Under the pieces are notes generated by a model. That model worked only from the letters and a program-made list of their open reading frames with translations, ran no database searches and was not told the DNA's origin. Positions 25,909 through 33,767 of a stretch of 64,000 nt of DNA are shown one piece after another (position 1 is the stretch's first letter; every line of letters starts with the position of its first letter). A program made the translations under genes and the position numbers. The DNA is from Neolewinella xylanilytica (GTDB taxonomy: Bacteria > Bacteroidota > Bacteroidia > Chitinophagales > Saprospiraceae): NCBI RefSeq assembly GCF_002934605.1, contig NZ_PTJC01000008.1, forward strand, positions 101,060 to 165,059, read 5' to 3'.

Positions 25909-27006
25909 ATGGGACTCAAATGCGGCATCGTCGGCCTACCGAACGTGGGGAAGTCAACCCTCTTTAACGCCCTCACCTCGGCCAAGGCGCTGGCTGCCAA
26001 CTACCCCTTCGCCACCAAGGATCCGAACCTGGGCGTGATTACCGTCCCGGACCCCCGCCTGGACAAACTCGAAGAACTCGTCAACCCCCAAAAGGTCATC
26101 CCGACTACGGTGGATATCGTCGACATTGCCGGCCTGATCAAGGGTGCCAGCAAGGGCGAAGGCCTGGGAAATCAGTTCCTGGGTAATATCCGCGAAACGG
26201 ATGCCATTCTGCACGTCGTCCGCTGCTTTGAAGACGATAACGTCGTGCACGTCGACGGAAACGTGGATCCGGTGCGCGATAAGATGATTATCGACACCGA
26301 ACTCATCCTCAAGGACATCGAGACGGTAGAAAAACGCGTGGAAAAGTTCCGGCGCACCGCGAAAAGCGGCGATAAGGAATCCAAACGTATCGTGGAAGTA
26401 GGTGAGGCCCTGCTTTCCCACCTGGAAAGTGAAAAGCCCGCCCGGAGCTTTGAAACGGACGAGGAAGGCCAGCAAGTAGTAGAAGAATTGTTGCTTCTCA
26501 CGAGTAAACCAATTCTCTACGTCTGCAACGTCGATATAGACAGCATCGAAGACGGTAACGTCCACACCAAAGCCTTCCGGGAATCGGTAGCCGACGAAAA
26601 CGCCGAGATCATCCTGATCTCCGCTGGTATTGAAGCCGATATCGCCGAATTGGAAACGAAACAGGAACGCGCCGAATTCATCGAGGAAATGGGGCTCACC
26701 GAGCCCGGTGTCAACAAGGTCATCCGCGCCAGCTACGAACTGCTGGATCTGGTCACCTACTTTACCGCCGGTGAAAAAGAAGTCCGCGCTTGGACCATCA
26801 CCCGCGGCACCAAGGCACCCGGAGCCGCTGGCGTGATCCATTCCGATTTCGAAAAAGGCTTTATTCGTGCGGAAGTGATTCACTACGCCGATTTCGTTAC
26901 CTACGGCAGCGAATCCGGTGCCCGCGATAATGGCAAGCTCAACGTCGAAGGCAAAGAATACGTAGTGCAGGACGGTGACGTGATGCACTTCCGCTTTAAC
27001 GTATAA
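25909..27006 (+). CDS. ychF: Redox/ribosome-associated GTPase-ATPase YchF (OLA1 family)
   Basis: A 365-residue protein, the standard YchF length. G1 reads GLPNVGKST, G3 reads DIAGL, and the nucleotide-specificity motif is N-(V/I)-D instead of NKxD (YVCNVDIDS), in keeping with ATP preference. The C-terminal TGS-like domain begins near GEKEVRAWTITRG. It binds ribosomes and affects translation and stress responses in other bacteria. A convergent-looking spacer with a tandem repeat array follows its stop codon. Confidence 0.98.
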   Translation: MGLKCGIVGLPNVGKSTLFNALTSAKALAANYPFATKDPNLGVITVPDPRLDKLEELVNPQKVIPTTVDIVDIAGLIKGASKGEGLGNQFLGNIRETDAILHVVRCFEDDNVVHVDGNVDPVRDKMIIDTELILKDIETVEKRVEKFRRTAKSGDKESKRIVEVGEALLSHLESEKPARSFETDEEGQQVVEELLLLTSKPILYVCNVDIDSIEDGNVHTKAFRESVADENAEIILISAGIEADIAELETKQERAEFIEEMGLTEPGVNKVIRASYELLDLVTYFTAGEKEVRAWTITRGTKAPGAAGVIHSDFEKGFIRAEVIHYADFVTYGSESGARDNGKLNVEGKEYVVQDGDVMHFRFNV

Positions 27007-27020
27007 ACGACCGGGTATTC

Positions 27021-27468
27021 CAGACCCTCGGAGGTCCTTGGGACACTCCGAGGTCTTGATATCCCTCACGAGGCTTACAGGACCTCGAAGTGTCGGCGTA
27101 AGCCACCTTCGAGTGTCCGGTTCGTATGTTCCAACCCAGAGCCTCGCCGGTCATTCGAATACTTCGAGGTCTTCAACTCCCTAGGGAAAGGCATAGGACC
27201 TCGGAGCGTCGGCGCTAGCCACCTCCGAGTGTCCGGTTCGTTCGTACCCATCCAGAGCCTCGCAGGTCCTTCGGACATTCCGAGGTCTTCGACTCCCTCG
27301 GGAAACGAATAGGACCTCGGAGCGTCGGCGTTTGCCACCTCCGTATGTCCGGTTGATAATCTCTTGTCCAGACCCTCGCAGGTCCTTCAAACACTCCGAG
27401 GTCTTAACATCCGTCGGGAGGCGTGTAGGACCTCGAAGTGTCGGCGCAATCCACCTTCGAGTGTCCGG
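27021..27468. repeat. Tandem array of four exactly 116-bp units, each with two hairpins
   Basis: Units begin at CAGA(C/G)CCTCG: 27021, 27137, 27253 and 27369, so the period is 116 bp three times running; the fourth unit stops at its GTCCGG (27468). Hairpin 2 pairs GGACCTCG(A/G)AG with CT(T/C)CGAGTGTCC: 27080-27090/27107-27118, 27196-27206/27223-27234, 27312-27322/27339-27350 (partly broken) and 27428-27438/27455-27466. Units 1 and 4 have A-T where unit 2 has G-C at the same pair. Hairpin 1 (for example 27026-27037/27041-27053) is strong in unit 1 and weaker elsewhere. No spacers or coding potential are evident. Confidence 0.88.
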
Positions 27469-27544
27469 TATCGAAACAGCCCTCCCTCGTAGCCACCGTG
27501 AACCCCCTTCCCCATCCACAGTTAGGTGAGCAAACTCAACGACC

Positions 27545-28148: not shown

Positions 28149-29228
28149 CTACCTAGCCTTATTCACGATAGCATCCTGGTGATCGATGCTCTCCTGGTGG
28201 ATAGCCCGGAGGTAACCTTCCATGAATTCCTCGCTCAGTCCGTGGTCCTTTCCCTGTTTGGTGGCTTCTTGGAGAACCTCCTCCCATCGACTTTCCTGAA
28301 GGACGGCGATGTTGCGCTCGGCCTTAAATTCGCCGATCTGGTCGGCAAGCTTCATCCGGCGACCGATCATGCCGATCAGGTCATTGTCGATCTCATCGAT
28401 CTGGCGGCGAAGCTCGGTGAGGCGTTCCATTTCTACCTCGTCGGCGGTGGGCTTGCGGAGGCGGAGGTTCTTGATCAGTTCACCGAAGACGGCCGGGGTG
28501 ATTTGCTGGGCGGCGTCCGACCAGGCCTCATCGGGCCGGGGGTGCACCTCGGTCATGAGTCCGTCGTAGTTGAGGTTCAGCGCCTCCTGGGCTACTTCGG
28601 CGAGCAGGTCGCGGCGTCCGCAGATGTGGCTGTTGTCGACGATCATCTGCAGATCGGGGAAGCGGCGCTTCATCTCGATGGCCATCTGCCAGCGCGGTAC
28701 GTTGCGGTAGATGGTTTCGCCGTGGTAGCTGAAACCGCGGTGGATCAGTCCGATACGGGTGATGCCGGCTTTGTAGATCCGTTCTACGGCCCCGATCCAG
28801 AGTCCGAGATCCGGGTTGATGGGGTTCTTGATGAGCACGGGCACGTCGGCGCCGTTCAGGGCATCGGCGACTTCCTGTACGCTGAAGGGATTGACGGTAG
28901 TACGGGCACCGAGCCACAGCACGTCGATACCGGCCTTTAGGCAGTCGTAGACGTGGCTGGCATTCGCTACCTCAGTGGTTGTTTTCAGTCCGGTTTCTTC
29001 CTTGACCCTTTTGAGCCAGGAAAGGCCTTCCTTCCCTACCCCCTCGAAGCTGCCGGGGCGGGTGCGGGGCTTCCAGATGCCGGAGCGATAGAGGTCGACC
29101 TGACCGAGTTTGGCGAGATCGCGGGCGCACTGCATCACCTGGCCCTCGGTTTCGGCACTGCAGGGTCCGGCGATAACGACACCGCGACCGGGAGTGGGCT
29201 GGATTACTTTTCCGATATTCATTTCCAT
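28149..29228 (-). CDS. Bifunctional DAHP synthase / chorismate mutase
   Basis: A 359-residue fusion. Residues ~1-260 are a type I-beta (KDO8P-like) DAHP synthase: VVIAGPCSAE, KPRTRPGSFEGVG, LWLGARTTVNPFSVQEVAD, LIKNPINPDL, VDNSHICGRRD and TEVHPRPDEAWSD. Residues ~270-359 are an AroQ-type chorismate mutase helix bundle (LRRQIDEIDNDLIGMIGRRMKL, then the catalytic lysine region). The pair links the first shikimate step with the branch to phenylalanine and tyrosine, and the mutase domain usually confers prephenate feedback. It is the last gene of the pheA-aminotransferase-tyrA operon, starting 6 bp after tyrA. Confidence 0.95.
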   Translation of the reverse strand: MEMNIGKVIQPTPGRGVVIAGPCSAETEGQVMQCARDLAKLGQVDLYRSGIWKPRTRPGSFEGVGKEGLSWLKRVKEETGLKTTTEVANASHVYDCLKAGIDVLWLGARTTVNPFSVQEVADALNGADVPVLIKNPINPDLGLWIGAVERIYKAGITRIGLIHRGFSYHGETIYRNVPRWQMAIEMKRRFPDLQMIVDNSHICGRRDLLAEVAQEALNLNYDGLMTEVHPRPDEAWSDAAQQITPAVFGELIKNLRLRKPTADEVEMERLTELRRQIDEIDNDLIGMIGRRMKLADQIGEFKAERNIAVLQESRWEEVLQEATKQGKDHGLSEEFMEGYLRAIHQESIDHQDAIVNKAR

Positions 29229-29234
29229 GGTCTT

Positions 29235-30077
29235 CTACTTTAGAATTTTTTCAATTTGATTGGCGCGACGGATGCGTTCGTAAAAGCCATCAAAGTCGCG
29301 TTTAATTAGTTGGGTGCGAAAACGGGAGAGCTGCTCGATGTGCTCGTCCAGTACGTCCAGTACGTGGTCGCGGTTCTGGCGGAAGATCGGCACCCACATA
29401 TCCGGAGAGCTCTTCGCCAGACGAACCGTTGAGCTAAAGCCGGAGCTCGCGAGCTCGAAAATTCGCTGCTCGTCCTTTTCCTTTTCCAGTACCGTGAGGG
29501 CCAGGGCGAAGGAGGCAATGTGGGAAATGTGACTTACGTAGGCACAGTGCAGATCGTGGGCGTTCCGCTCGAGGTGGGTGAAGCGCATGCCGACGGTACC
29601 GAACACCTGCTTGGCGGTATCAACGGCATCCTGGTCGCTGTCTTCGGCATCGACGATGACGCAGGTTTTCCCTTCGAAAAGGTGGGGGATGGCTGCCTCC
29701 GGACCGCTGAATTCCGTACCGGCCATCGGGTGGCAGGCTACGAAGCGCCCCCGGTTGGGGTGGTCTACCACCGTGTCCAGTAGCGTTTGCTTCGTGGAGC
29801 CTACGTCCAGCACCGTCTGGTCCTTGCGTACCATGTCGAGCAAATCGGGCAGGAGGTCGAGCATGGCGTCCATGGGGGTAGCCAGGATAATCACATCGGC
29901 CAGCCGAATGCCGGCCTCCAGGGGGAGGTCGTCGTCGATCAGCCGGCGGCGAACGGCCTTATCGAGGTTGGCCTGACTGGCATCCATGCCGATGATCTGC
30001 TCGGCCAGCCCGCTTTCCTTCAGGCTGATGGCCAGGGAACCACCGATGAGTCCGATGCCGATAATTCCGATGATCAT
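29235..30077 (-). CDS. tyrA: Prephenate dehydrogenase
   Basis: A 280-residue NAD(P)-dependent dehydrogenase. The Rossmann motif GIGLIGGSLA lies at the N-terminus. Catalytic-site signatures are GSTKQTLL, CHPMAGTEFSGP and HISHIASFALA. It oxidises prephenate to 4-hydroxyphenylpyruvate for tyrosine synthesis. There is no chorismate mutase domain here, which fits the mutase being fused to the DAHP synthase just downstream. The start overlaps the stop of the aminotransferase gene (ATGA), pointing to translational coupling. Confidence 0.95.
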   Translation of the reverse strand: MIIGIIGIGLIGGSLAISLKESGLAEQIIGMDASQANLDKAVRRRLIDDDLPLEAGIRLADVIILATPMDAMLDLLPDLLDMVRKDQTVLDVGSTKQTLLDTVVDHPNRGRFVACHPMAGTEFSGPEAAIPHLFEGKTCVIVDAEDSDQDAVDTAKQVFGTVGMRFTHLERNAHDLHCAYVSHISHIASFALALTVLEKEKDEQRIFELASSGFSSTVRLAKSSPDMWVPIFRQNRDHVLDVLDEHIEQLSRFRTQLIKRDFDGFYERIRRANQIEKILK

Positions 30078-31282
30078 AATGAACGGGACTTTTGTTGCTC
30101 CTGCGCGCCGGCGCCCAAACGGTACAGGGCTTCCTGCAGTTGTTCCTCGGTGCTACAGAGACTGATCCGCACGTACGGCTTGCCGGCCCCGCCGAAGATT
30201 CCGCCCGGCGTAAGAAAGACGTCCTTGTCGTAAAGCGCCCGGTCACAGATACCGTAACCGTCCGTATCCGGAGGACACCTGGCCCATACAAACAGGCCCA
30301 CCTGCTCGCGGCTGTAGGTGCAACCCAGTTGGTCCATAATGCGAAAAGCGACCTCCCTGCGGCTACGGTAGACGGCGTTGAGCTGGCGGTACCATTCGTC
30401 ACCAAGCCCGAGCGCCACCACGGCGGCCTCCTGGACGGGCAGGAACATCCCGCTGTCCATATTCGACTTGAAGCGCAACACCGTCTGCAAGTAGGCCGCC
30501 GCCCCAGCCAGGGCTCCGACTCGCCAGCCCGCCATGTTCTGCGCTTTGCTCAGGCTGGACAACTCCAGAGCTACCTCCCGGGCGCCGGGTACGGACAGCA
30601 AGCTCTGCACCGTGTCGGTCAGGATGAAGGCGTACGGATTGTCGTTCACGAGCAAGATGCGGTTCCGGCGGGCGAATTGAACCAGCTCCCGGAAGAAATC
30701 CGGAGTGGCCATGGCACCGGTTGGCATGTGCGGGTAATTCACCCACATGATTTTAACCCGATCCAATCCTTCACTCTCCAGGCGATTCAGGTCTGGCAAC
30801 CAACCGCTTGCCTCGTTTAAAGAGTAGCTCCGCACGGTACCCCCGGCCAGCTCGGTAGCGGAACGGTAGGTGGGGTAACCCGGATCGGGAACGAGCACTT
30901 CGTCGCCGGGATTGATAAAGGCCATGCTCACGTGCATGATACCTTCCTTACTGCCCATGAGCGGAAGCAACTCCTGTTCGGGATCGAGGGAAACGCCGAA
31001 GTAGCGATCGTACCAGCCGGCGAAGGCCCGGCGCAGCTCGGGGCGACCGGTATAGGGCTGATAGCCGTGGGAATCGGGGCGTTCGGCAGACCGGGTCAGC
31101 GCGCGCAGCACTTCGGGAGCGGGGGGCAGGTCGGGACTTCCGATTCCCAGGTTCAGGATATCCTTTCCCTGTCCGCGAAGCCTGGCGATCTCCCGCAGTT
31201 TGGTGCTGAAATAGTATTCCTCGGTGTCTCCCAGGCGATCGCTGACCGGAATGATGGGGGCAAAGGTGGTCGGGGTGGTCAT
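30074..31282 (-). CDS. Class I/II aminotransferase (aromatic/aspartate type)
   Basis: A 402-residue PLP enzyme. Motifs are LNLGIGSPDLPP near residue 40, NYPHMPTGA, VNDNPYAF and the PLP-lysine site SSLSKAQNMAGWRVG. Its place between pheA and tyrA suggests it transaminates phenylpyruvate and 4-hydroxyphenylpyruvate or arogenate; the sequence also resembles LL-diaminopimelate/aspartate aminotransferases. The start at 31282 lies 2 bp after the pheA stop and opens the family homology; an upstream frame inside pheA was rejected. The four genes pheA to DAHPS-CM are gapped by no more than 6 bp or overlap, so they form one transcript. Confidence 0.9.
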   Translation of the reverse strand: MTTPTTFAPIIPVSDRLGDTEEYYFSTKLREIARLRGQGKDILNLGIGSPDLPPAPEVLRALTRSAERPDSHGYQPYTGRPELRRAFAGWYDRYFGVSLDPEQELLPLMGSKEGIMHVSMAFINPGDEVLVPDPGYPTYRSATELAGGTVRSYSLNEASGWLPDLNRLESEGLDRVKIMWVNYPHMPTGAMATPDFFRELVQFARRNRILLVNDNPYAFILTDTVQSLLSVPGAREVALELSSLSKAQNMAGWRVGALAGAAAYLQTVLRFKSNMDSGMFLPVQEAAVVALGLGDEWYRQLNAVYRSRREVAFRIMDQLGCTYSREQVGLFVWARCPPDTDGYGICDRALYDKDVFLTPGGIFGGAGKPYVRISLCSTEEQLQEALYRLGAGAQEQQKSRSL

Positions 31283-31284
31283 AG

Positions 31285-32136
31285 TCAGGGTTTTTCTCCG
31301 GAGGGGTACACGCCCAGGATGCGCAGTTCTTTGGTGATCGGACGGATGCCGGCCAGGGCTTCGGCCAGGGTGATGTTGCCGTTGAGCATAAAATCGACGT
31401 AGAAGCGATACTGCCACGGGCGACCGACGATCGGCGTGCTCTGAATTTTGGTCAGGTTAATTTTGTAGGCGTCCAGTACCATCAACACCCGGGAGAGGCT
31501 TCCGGCCTCGTGGCTGGTGCTGAAGCTCATACTCACTTTGTCACCGCGGTCGCCGTCGGTATTCCGGCCGCGCTCCAGCACGAGAAAGCGGGTATGGTTC
31601 AGTTTATTGGTCTCGATACCGTGGGCCAGAATTTCCAGATCGTACAGGCTGGCGGCTATGCTGGCCGCTACCGCGCCGCGGGTACGAACCCCTTTCTCCT
31701 TTACGTGCAGGGCGCTCAGGGCGGTATCGGCCGACTCTACCAACTGAATTTTTGGCCACGCCTGGAAAAACTCCCGAACCTGCATGAGGGCGATCGGGTG
31801 GGAGTACACTTCCCGCAGCTCCTCGATCTTCACGCCCGGTAGGGCCATCAGATTCTGGCGGATACGGAGGTAAACCTCTCCGGTGATGCGCAGTGACGAC
31901 CGTTGCAGGAGATCGTAATTGGACATAAGGCTGCCGGCGAGGGTATTCTCGATGGCCATGAGCGCTACGTCGCTTTCCCCCGCTTCCACCTGGCTGATGA
32001 CTTCCGCGAAAGTGTGGCCGGGCACGGTCACAACCTCACGGTCCTGAAAGTGCATCCGGGCGGCAGCTTCGTGAAAAGCGCCGGCGTATCCCTGGATACT
32101 GACGCGGAGTTGTCGAAGGGCGGCAATTGGTGGCAT
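31285..32136 (-). CDS. pheA: Prephenate dehydratase
   Basis: A 283-residue monofunctional dehydratase. The catalytic part has SIQGYAGAFHEAA, ALMAIENTLAGS, VYSHPIALMQ and the Thr-containing LNHTRFLVL. The C-terminal ACT domain, with HEAGSLSRVLMVLDAYKINLTKIQSTP, is the usual phenylalanine-binding site. It makes phenylpyruvate. It is the first structural gene of the operon and lies 11 bp downstream of an intrinsic terminator that forms part of a leader-peptide attenuator. Confidence 0.96.
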   Translation of the reverse strand: MPPIAALRQLRVSIQGYAGAFHEAAARMHFQDREVVTVPGHTFAEVISQVEAGESDVALMAIENTLAGSLMSNYDLLQRSSLRITGEVYLRIRQNLMALPGVKIEELREVYSHPIALMQVREFFQAWPKIQLVESADTALSALHVKEKGVRTRGAVAASIAASLYDLEILAHGIETNKLNHTRFLVLERGRNTDGDRGDKVSMSFSTSHEAGSLSRVLMVLDAYKINLTKIQSTPIVGRPWQYRFYVDFMLNGNITLAEALAGIRPITKELRILGVYPSGEKP

Positions 32137-32147
32137 AGGATGTTAGC

Positions 32148-32184
32148 AATAAAAAAAGCGGCTCCCTGGATGGGGGGGACCGCT
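32148..32184 (-). terminator. Intrinsic terminator of the phe/tyr attenuator
   Basis: On the minus strand, AGCGGTCCCC (32184-32175) pairs with the arm at 32166-32157 around an 8-nt loop: 5 bp, one C/A mismatch, then 4 bp including one G-U pair. A run of seven Ts (32157-32151) follows directly. It ends 11 bp before the pheA ATG, so unless prevented it would stop transcription before the operon. Confidence 0.85.
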
Positions 32185-32234
32185 TCTGCTGTGACTTTCG
32201 ATTTCAAACGTTCAGCGTCCCCTACTCGCGTAGG
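32175..32234 (-). promoter_or_regulatory. Antiterminator and pause hairpin of the phe/tyr attenuator
   Basis: Two further helices compete with the terminator. CCTAC-GCGA-GTAGG (32234-32221) is a perfect 5-bp hairpin over the last codons of the leader peptide. GGGGACGCT (32222-32214) is complementary to AGCGGTCCCC (32184-32175) with one bulged G, a 9-bp helix that would sequester the 5' arm of the terminator. The layout is that of classical 1:2 / 2:3 / 3:4 attenuation. Confidence 0.75.
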
Positions 32235-32275
32235 CGGTAAAAGCTAAACCAGAAATAGGAAGTCGTTTTCGTCAT
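32222..32275 (-). CDS. Aromatic-rich leader peptide (pheL-like)
   Basis: A 17-codon frame, MTKTTSYFWFSFYRLRE, ending in TAG at 32224-32222. Six of 17 residues are aromatic (Y7, F8, W9, F10, F12, Y13), clustered just before the pause hairpin. The ATG lies 7 bp after a TAGGTTTG promoter element, so the mRNA should be leaderless or nearly so. Stalling at the F/W/Y codons would leave 32214-32222 free for the antiterminator; completion to the stop codon would cover it and allow termination. The family is not conserved in sequence, so the call rests on codon content and position. Confidence 0.8.
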   Translation of the reverse strand: MTKTTSYFWFSFYRLRE

Positions 32276-32282
32276 TATGCCA

Positions 32283-32313
32283 CAAACCTACGGCCTTGTT
32301 TTCGTACCACAAA
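32283..32313 (-). promoter_or_regulatory. Promoter of the phe/tyr operon (TTTG-N19-TAGGTTTG)
   Basis: On the minus strand a -33 TTTG (32313-32310) is followed after 19 bp by TAGGTTTG (32290-32283), a full match to the Bacteroidota TTTG-N19/20-TAnnTTTG promoter. The leader-peptide ATG starts 7 bp further on. Confidence 0.75.
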
Positions 32314-32423: not shown

Positions 32424-33767
32424 ATGGATACTTTGATTACCGTCGGACAGCTGGTCCTGAGCCTTTCCATTTTGATCGTCTTGCACGAATTCGGCCACTT
32501 CCTGCCCGCCCGACTTTTCGGCACCCGCGTCGAAAAATTTTACCTCTTTTTCGATCCCGGCTTCAGTTTGTTCAAGAAACAGATCGGGGAAACCGAGTAC
32601 GGTATTGGATGGCTACCCCTGGGCGGATACGTCAAGATCAGCGGGATGATCGACGAAAGCTTCGATACCGACCAAATGGACCAGGAGCCTCAGCCCTACG
32701 AGTTTCGCTCGAAGCCGGCCTGGCAACGGCTCATCATCATGCTCGGTGGCGTGACGGTCAATTTCATTCTCGGCTTTTTCATCTACGCCATGGTACTCTT
32801 TGCCTACGGGGAGGAGTACTTTCCCGCGGAGAACGTCACGGCCGGTATTGCCGTAGACAGCCTGGGGCAAGCAATCGGCCTGGAGAGCGGCGACCGGATT
32901 CTCTCCGTCGGCGACGCCCCCTTCGAGCGGTTCAATGACCGGATCGTGCTGCGGGAGATCGCCATTAATAACGCCCGCGATATCGAGGTGCTCCGAGACG
33001 ACCGGCAGCTGACCGTCGACGTCGACCCCAAGTGGACCGACCTCCTTACCCGCTACGAGAACAAGAATAGCCGGCTGTTCACCATGCGTATCCCCCTGGT
33101 GGTTGGGGACGTAGTCGCGGGCGGCCCGGCGGACGAGGCCGGCCTGCGGAAGGAGGACCGCATCGTCAGTGTGAACGGCACCCCTACCCCGTACTTCGAC
33201 CAGGTCACCGAAGTACTGATGGATAATAAAGGACAGACCGTTACCCTTGGCGTCGAAACAAAGGAAACCCAGCAAGTTCGGGAAGTACCCCTTACGCTAA
33301 CCGAGGAGGGACGCATCGGCATCGGCGTGGCTCCACCGGAATATTTTTACGACACGGAACGGCAGGAATACGGATTCCTGGAGGCCATCCCCGCCGGCAT
33401 TGACCAGGGCGTCAACTTCCTCGGCGACCAGTTCAAGGCCTTCGGGCAGATGTTTGCCGGAAACATAAAGGTGACCGAAAGCCTGGGAGGATTCGCGAGC
33501 ATCGGAGGCATGTTCGGCAATGTCTGGGTGTGGGAGCGCTTCTGGTACATGACGGCATCGCTTTCGCTGATCCTCGCCTTCATGAACTTGCTGCCGATCC
33601 CTGCCCTCGACGGAGGTCACGTGATGTTCCTGCTCTACGAAGTCGTGACGGGGCGCAAGCCGAGCGATAAGTTTATGGAGCGCGCCACCATGGTCGGCTT
33701 CGTCATCGTGCTGGGACTGGTCGTGCTTGCCAACGGACTGGACATCTGGCGCTGGATCAACAGTTAA
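32424..33767 (+). CDS. rseP: RseP-like site-2 protease (M50)
   Basis: A 447-residue membrane metalloprotease. The zinc motif HEFGH is in the first membrane segment, and the third ligand region LLPIPALDGGH is in the C-terminal part. Between them lie two PDZ-like segments (around residues 130-190 and 205-285, the latter with GGPADEAGLRKEDRIVSVNG). It carries out regulated intramembrane proteolysis of anti-sigma factors or signal-peptide remnants. The ATG at 32424 opens the family homology. The 68-bp gap to hscB has no clear terminator, so co-transcription is possible. Confidence 0.94.
   Translation: MDTLITVGQLVLSLSILIVLHEFGHFLPARLFGTRVEKFYLFFDPGFSLFKKQIGETEYGIGWLPLGGYVKISGMIDESFDTDQMDQEPQPYEFRSKPAWQRLIIMLGGVTVNFILGFFIYAMVLFAYGEEYFPAENVTAGIAVDSLGQAIGLESGDRILSVGDAPFERFNDRIVLREIAINNARDIEVLRDDRQLTVDVDPKWTDLLTRYENKNSRLFTMRIPLVVGDVVAGGPADEAGLRKEDRIVSVNGTPTPYFDQVTEVLMDNKGQTVTLGVETKETQQVREVPLTLTEEGRIGIGVAPPEYFYDTERQEYGFLEAIPAGIDQGVNFLGDQFKAFGQMFAGNIKVTESLGGFASIGGMFGNVWVWERFWYMTASLSLILAFMNLLPIPALDGGHVMFLLYEVVTGRKPSDKFMERATMVGFVIVLGLVVLANGLDIWRWINS

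Follow-up and report, generated by a model that had tools for sequence, protein, structure and literature searches.

What controls transcription of the phenylalanine and tyrosine operon of Neolewinella xylanilytica? In the 64,000-nucleotide stretch of contig NZ_PTJC01000008.1 analysed here (the window), positions 32313 to 28149 of the minus strand carry, in this order, a promoter, a leader, a terminator, pheA, an aminotransferase gene, tyrA, and a gene encoding a DAHP synthase/chorismate mutase. The first part of this region (32313–32136, minus strand) is made up of a Bacteroidota-type promoter, a 17-codon open reading frame, a set of alternative hairpins, and a terminator with a run of seven Ts, after which pheA begins. 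We conclude, with a probability of about 0.92, that the element in front of pheA is a ribosome-mediated transcription attenuator, and the window contains a single unit of this kind.

The genes of the operon are all encoded on the minus strand. The first, pheA (31285–32136), has prephenate dehydratase models as its best matches, all of them below the curated cut-offs, and is followed by a PLP-dependent aminotransferase gene (30074–31417), whose model matches are likewise below cut-offs. The listed start of the aminotransferase gene at 31417 overlaps pheA, and the true start is probably near the pheA end. The tyrA gene (29235–30077) matches prephenate dehydrogenase above a curated cut-off, and in the fusion gene at 28149–29228 both the DAHP synthase and the chorismate mutase domains are matched, below cut-offs. 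The same gene order is present in 18 of 19 named loci (L031–L049); the nineteenth, L043, is on a 6-kb contig and has no match to the DAHP synthase/chorismate mutase gene. The nearest named relatives found are Lewinella and Neolewinella, and the PheA protein has 94% identity to that of Lewinella sp. IMCC34191. Elsewhere in the window there is an imperfect tandem DNA repeat (27019–27469) with a period of 116 bp and copies that are 76–79% alike, located just after a gene ending at 27006.

The promoter (32313–32283, minus strand) has a −33 TTTG at 32313–32310, a 19-nt spacer, and a −7 box, TAGGTTTG, at 32290–32283, which corresponds to the TTTG-N19-box arrangement of the original prediction for this DNA. 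With the box at positions −12 to −5, where it is placed in Flavobacterium psychrophilum in the available text of PMC9723704, transcription is predicted to start at about 32278, leaving a 5′ UTR of only ~3 nt. The leader ORF, MTKTTSYFWFSFYRLRE (32275–32222, minus strand), starts with the ATG at 32275, ends with the stop codon at 32224–32222, and has 17 codons, six of which (codons 7–10, 12, and 13, within YFWFSFY) specify aromatic residues, as had also been claimed. Such clustering, in a short ORF, of codons for the amino acids that the operon makes is characteristic of attenuators. There are 506 ATG-initiated ORFs of 8–45 aa in the window and two of these contain at least six F, Y, or W residues per nine, namely the leader and an ORF at 2402–2527 on the plus strand. 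The latter sits 75 nt before an ORF at 2602 that resembles a sigma-54-type regulator by eye, and probably owes its aromatic cluster to chance.

Several alternative RNA structures can be formed by the leader (all on the minus strand). A 1:2 structure (32249–32210) pairs GUUUAGC with GCUGAAC and encloses the hairpin CCUAC-GCGA-GUAGG, which is the pause hairpin (32234–32221; 5 bp with a GCGA loop, −5.6 kcal/mol, with none of 200 shuffles as good). Strand 2, GGGGACGCT (32222–32214), begins 14 nt past the last aromatic codon and is the 5′ arm of an antiterminator, in which it pairs with 32184–32182 and 32180–32175 through 9 bp with G32181 bulged. Strand 3 (32184–32175) is common to the antiterminator and to the 5′ arm of the terminator (32187–32151), the latter consisting of a hairpin at 32187–32154 and a T run at 32157–32151. 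There is therefore both a terminator between the leader ORF and the first gene and an antiterminator sharing one of its strands. The seven-T terminator is present as first described, but its T run ends 14 nt short of the pheA ATG at 32136, rather than 11. The whole leader folds better than shuffled sequences (z −3.7), as does the 46-nt stretch around the terminator (z −3.5, 0 of 200 shuffles), and the antiterminator of the window is just at the 5% line, with 10 of 200 shuffles binding as well (7 of 200 in a narrower test). Its strongest competitor is the larger leader fold in which GUUUAGC and GCUGAAC close around the pause hairpin.

Folding was staged using a transcript that ends just past strand 3 and an assumed position of the ribosome edge. 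With Y13, F12, F10, or Y7 occupying the A site, the probability of 2:3 pairing was 1.00, 1.00, 0.99, and 0.90, respectively; it was 0.00 when the ribosome was at the stop codon or the RNA was naked. In this model a ribosome at the control codons would leave strand 2 free and one at the stop codon would cover it, and the constrained folding thus reproduces the attenuation logic that had been proposed from inspection of the leader. For the full leader at equilibrium, the terminator is favoured in every ribosome state tried, and the switch must therefore be kinetic and set by which hairpin forms first.

We infer the transcription start, the translation of the leader, the stalling, and the response to aromatic amino acids along the following lines. 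RNA polymerase would start near 32278 and a ribosome would load almost at the 5′ end of the transcript, on the leader ORF. When charged Phe-, Tyr-, and Trp-tRNA are plentiful, this ribosome would reach the stop codon and cover strand 2 (32222–32214), such that strand 3 would pair with strand 4 and the seven-T terminator would end transcription. A shortage of charged aromatic tRNA would make the ribosome stall within YFWFSFY before its front edge reached strand 2, which would be free to capture strand 3; the terminator would then come too late, and pheA, the aminotransferase gene, tyrA, and the DAHP synthase gene would be transcribed. Should no ribosome load, the leader would fold upon itself, the 1:2 structure would block the antiterminator, and transcription would terminate.

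Conservation of the leader was assessed by scanning 1400 nt upstream of pheA at 136 loci for ORFs with at least six F, Y, or W in nine residues. Thirty-six loci are from a first set of genomes and 100 are from the 258 matching genomes of the phylum; these 100 comprise the 27 best-ranked and 73 chosen across genera from the better-scoring matches listed, and are biased to better-scoring PheA proteins (L010, at a contig edge, was left out). An aromatic-cluster ORF is present at all 20 loci of the same genus (Neolewinella), 11 of 12 in the other-family group, 9 of 15 in the other-order group (among the six loci lacking an aromatic leader, L204 offers only 218 nt of upstream sequence), 31 of 34 in the other-class group, and 10 of 55 in the other-phylum group; the opposite-strand control gave 10 of 136 loci. 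Five of the ten phylum-level matches are within 300 nt of pheA and the other five farther out, and beyond the class the combination of a leader within 300 nt of pheA and a terminator is present at only 5 of 55 loci. No aromatic run is present in the listed ORFs of ten loci outside the phylum and of one Muribaculaceae locus. ORFs of this type with ATG or GTG starts at −520 to −30 are also absent from the control operons of relatives, with none at 23 hisG, 29 trpE, and 15 ilvB loci (2 of 25 hisG and 1 of 30 trpE loci on short contigs were left out, as were 7 of 22 ilvB loci that are distant or paralogous).

Within the genus, 134 of the 140 codons in the seven aromatic columns of the 20 Neolewinella leaders specify F, Y, or W; of 45 single-base changes to such codons, 8 preserve an aromatic residue. 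Loss of the aromatic codons in close relatives had been set as a check on the original prediction, and all 20 loci retain them. Among 78 distinct leaders of the first sample, F and Y are present in all and W in 36, which fits an operon for phenylalanine and tyrosine. A pattern search for further aromatic runs in 21 Neolewinella genomes was abandoned as unspecific, with 19 matches in the window's own genome and 23 for a reversed-pattern control.

Terminators were sought after leaders lying at −420 to −30, with TTG starts excluded. A hairpin and T run follow 82 of the 83 leaders passing this position filter at a lax threshold of −6 kcal/mol, which 75 of 243 shuffled stretches also reach, and at a threshold of −10 kcal/mol a hairpin with its T run is present after 80 of 81 leaders compared with 25 of 243 dinucleotide-shuffled stretches. 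Antiterminator pairing was evaluated between the last aromatic codon and the terminator by finding the best partner for the terminator 5′ arm, a unit passing if no more than 10 of 200 shuffles did as well; this anchor replaced an earlier one at the stop codon, which missed strand 2 when located inside the ORF. The 2:3 pairing passes in 64 of 81 first-sample units, a set from which L063 (too little sequence) and L196 (no terminator) are omitted, and in 78 of 112 units of a second sample, from which L310 (two ORFs), unit 1 of L364, and L378 (no terminator) are omitted. The second sample has 89 loci, 62 from the window's family and 27 from a family designated f28, and was analysed after the anchor had been chosen; both families were already represented in the first sample, and it thus adds new loci and not new clades. 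Matches G394 and G418, together with listed matches without a locus, were left out of the loci read.

Strand 2 begins 7–14 nt past the last aromatic codon in 69 of the 81 first-sample units (median 10; 20% in shuffled sequences) and in 91 of the 112 second-sample units (median 11; null 20%), whereas first-sample starts measured from the stop codon end are spread from −36 to +5. In most Neolewinella, strand 2 starts where the stop codon ends, and in many members of the class it is inside the ORF; with either placement strand 2 is covered by a ribosome that fails to stall. A spacing of 7–14 nt is expected as the one that a stalled ribosome would require, and is about that of the leading edge of a ribosome with the last control codon in its A site, the edge being 12–15 nt from the P site in the portion of PMC3641672 available. 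In comparisons between families, strand 2 favours the strand 3 of its own leader: a median of 5% of foreign strands 3 bind a given strand 2 equally well, and a median of 7% of foreign strands 2 bind a given strand 3 as well as its own partner does.

Across the 20 Neolewinella loci, 94.6% of terminator cells are paired. Two-sided cells number 21, a count that 0 of 500 shuffles reach, and they span four pairs (7 of 500 shuffles). The two-sided changes are mostly in two columns (10 and 9 of the 21 cells) and may thus reflect a small number of events, and relatedness is not taken into account by the shuffle control. For the antiterminator, 84.6% of cells are paired compared to at most 64.6% for any slid version; it has no excess of compensatory changes among these 20 loci, and passes the 5% shuffle test in eight of them (L001, L002, and L004–L009, the window's subgroup) and fails in L003 and L011–L021. 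The 1:2 structure is paired in 74.6% of cells and its inner hairpin in 50%. The helices of the original prediction therefore fare unequally: the terminator is kept with paired changes, the 9-bp antiterminator is where it was said to be but its 2:3 pairing beats shuffles in only the eight loci, and the 5-bp pause hairpin is in the window but in only about half of the 20 Neolewinella, where it does not covary. The parts of the element, their conservation, their spacing, and the folding logic are established by computation.

The conservation pattern and the spacing also bear on other explanations for the leader. It could encode an arrest peptide, the nascent chain binding free aromatic amino acid in the ribosome tunnel as in TnaC, instead of the ribosome stalling for want of charged tRNA; the leader is aromatic-rich, and a ribosome stall would be the signal either way. 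To our knowledge arrest peptides need fixed residues, whereas here the leader sequence is poorly conserved beyond its aromatic content, with F, Y, and W interchanging and the rest varying between families, and the spacing tracks the last aromatic codon; we thus consider an arrest peptide very unlikely. Equally slight is the probability that the main role of the ORF is in translational coupling to pheA or in reinitiation there, or that it encodes a small protein acting in trans. For Bacteroidetes, reinitiation at leader ORFs has been proposed, peaking where the gap from stop to start is 11–14 bp (PMC4833913), and a trans-acting leader peptide is described in the available part of PMC7298713; here, however, the stop codon is 85 nt before the pheA start with a strong terminator in between, and both strand 2 and the terminator are found again at corresponding positions in different families. 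A constitutive terminator or insulator 3′ of a chance ORF would account for the hairpin, and rseP is divergent from the pheA operon with its start at 32424, but the aromatic leader is conserved in close relatives and ORFs of this type, two among the 506 of the window, are found upstream of none of the 67 loci of other operons, such that this explanation is hardly credible. A tRNA- or metabolite-sensing RNA (a T-box or riboswitch) with an incidental ORF would be in keeping with the better-than-shuffled leader fold, but in the window no Rfam family scores as high as its gathering threshold and such RNAs do not require runs of in-frame aromatic codons, and we give it next to no weight.

The sequence TANNTTTG is present no more than 75 nt from the first leader start in 48 of 77 first-sample loci, compared with 4.3% of mononucleotide-shuffled stretches, and in 41 of 84 second-sample loci. 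Box-to-start distances of 4–10, corresponding to predicted 5′ UTRs of 0–6 nt, are found for 18 of the 48 and 9 of the 41 leaders, respectively. Short 5′ UTRs are reported in the available texts for about 3.7% of 5′ UTRs in Bacteroides thetaiotaomicron (<10 nt; PMC7366714) and for 5.5% of mRNAs in F. psychrophilum (leaderless; PMC9723704), a comparison of measured starts in those species with predicted starts here in other genera.

Some relatives have candidate tandem attenuators, with two leader–terminator units in series, as in six first-sample loci (L022, L023, L026, L061, L066, and L146) and 31 of the 89 loci of the second sample (the window's family contributing 23 of 62 and f28 8 of 27); L296, L297, and L336, at contig edges, and L334, which is the same place as L146, were left out of this count. 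Both units are rich in F and Y, each followed by a terminator-like hairpin. In the second sample the pairing test is passed by 22 of the 30 first units and by equally many of the 30 second units, and by both units in 14 of the 29 loci with both tested, a comparison in which L356 and L382 have short upstream sequence. The promoter box TANNTTTG is located before unit 1 in 20 of these 31 tandems and between the units in one; in the six first-sample tandems a box is before unit 1 in four and between the units in none. Presumably a single transcript crosses both units. Three tandems need qualification, with L357 having a poor second terminator, L364 a poor first unit, and the pairing test of L310 being that of the first unit only.

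A combined reading of these data is one that we hold to be moderately probable, at somewhat better than even odds. In its first part, Bacteroidota would carry a very widespread Phe/Tyr attenuator before pheA, unmatched by Rfam, in which selection holds the antiterminator strand ~10–11 nt (one ribosome edge) past the last control codon whatever the position of the stop codon. In its second, several lineages, including the window's family and a second family of the class, would have two attenuators in series responding to the same signal, with read-through needing two successive stalls and a response that is steeper and wider. In its third, the two types, with strand 2 after the stop codon or within the ORF, may each correspond to one half of an ancestral tandem; other lineages, Neolewinella among them, would have retained a single half.

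Candidate leader ORFs are present before other amino acid operons. An HHH-bearing ORF is located before hisG at 19 of 23 loci, HHH being absent from the trpE and ilvB sets, and a WW-bearing ORF is located before trpE at 23 of 29 loci, with WW at none of the 23 hisG and 3 of the 15 ilvB loci. The window's own genome has an HHHH leader ORF upstream of hisG (L104) and a WWW leader ORF upstream of trpE (L127), no terminator being found for the latter. Terminator-like hairpins follow the picked ORFs in 22 of 23 His and 23 of 24 Trp cases, and the 2:3 test is passed in only 2 of 22 and 2 of 23, respectively, many of the hisG picks being a tRNA ORF. A tRNA-Phe gene is directly upstream of hisG in all four loci scanned for it (L104, where it is at 2211–2284, L105, L109, and L111), and a conserved peptide, MCRRFDSAPHH, considered as a second leader upstream of hisG, was rejected as the 3′ end of the tRNA-Phe gene read as an ORF. 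A conserved branched-chain leader before ilvB was also rejected, as an ATG ORF with at least five I, L, or V in nine is present at only 3 of 15 loci (L239, L248, which is from the window's genome, and L252), and the three ORFs are mutually unlike.

The trp, phe, and his leaders of Escherichia coli are the classical ribosome-mediated attenuators with 1:2, 2:3, and 3:4 pairings, and the mechanism here is the classical one. The window element has in common with these a short ORF in which codons for the product amino acid occur in runs, the three alternative pairings, and an intrinsic terminator before the first gene, and differs in its control codons, which mix F, Y, and W and precede an operon serving Phe as well as Tyr, its Bacteroidota promoter, its predicted 3-nt 5′ UTR, and the location of strand 2 inside the ORF in many relatives. 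The Rfam family Phe_leader (RF01859) is the same kind of element; it has no match in the window at its gathering score of 55 bits and none in L001 up to an E-value of 1, and among eight loci searched the relative L027 has a sub-threshold match of 27.8 bits (gathering 55) with an E-value of 0.86. Vitreschak and co-workers reportedly predicted some attenuators in Bacteroidetes/Chlorobi in 2004.

It had been supposed that this control is not established in Bacteroidota, and we found no direct experimental proof of such attenuation in the open-access literature for this phylum, but it has already been suggested in Flavobacterium. In F. psychrophilum there are strong clues for leader-peptide attenuation before amino acid operons, with 5′ elements before pheA (conserved) and hisG (PMC9723704), the genes and the phylum being the same as here. 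The evidence there is from transcript mapping, structure, and family-level conservation, and the available text of that study mentions neither a spacing rule nor tandems. Short ORFs resembling leader peptides are also noted in B. thetaiotaomicron in the accessible part of PMC7366714. The tandem attenuators of Salmonella mgtCBR likewise have two leader ORFs in one leader RNA, but according to the portion of PMC3641672 available these sense different signals (ATP and proline) and have stem-loops unlike intrinsic terminators, whereas both units of the Bacteroidota tandems are F/Y-rich and have terminator-like hairpins. What the present sequence comparison appears to add is the spacing rule, the breadth of distribution, the predicted near-leaderless starts, and the candidate same-signal tandems.

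Transcription–translation coupling varies between phyla, with runaway transcription in Bacillus, and ribosome-mediated attenuation needs a first ribosome that keeps pace with RNA polymerase. Conservation of the attenuator over much of a class without Shine-Dalgarno sequences (F. psychrophilum is described as lacking them in the available text of PMC9723704) therefore implies that transcription and translation are coupled there, and these attenuators are ready-made reporters for testing such coupling. The predicted 3-nt 5′ UTR would be a simple way to load a ribosome early, and the tandem arrangement in the relatives would constitute a natural two-stage amplifier that could be compared with its single-stage relatives.
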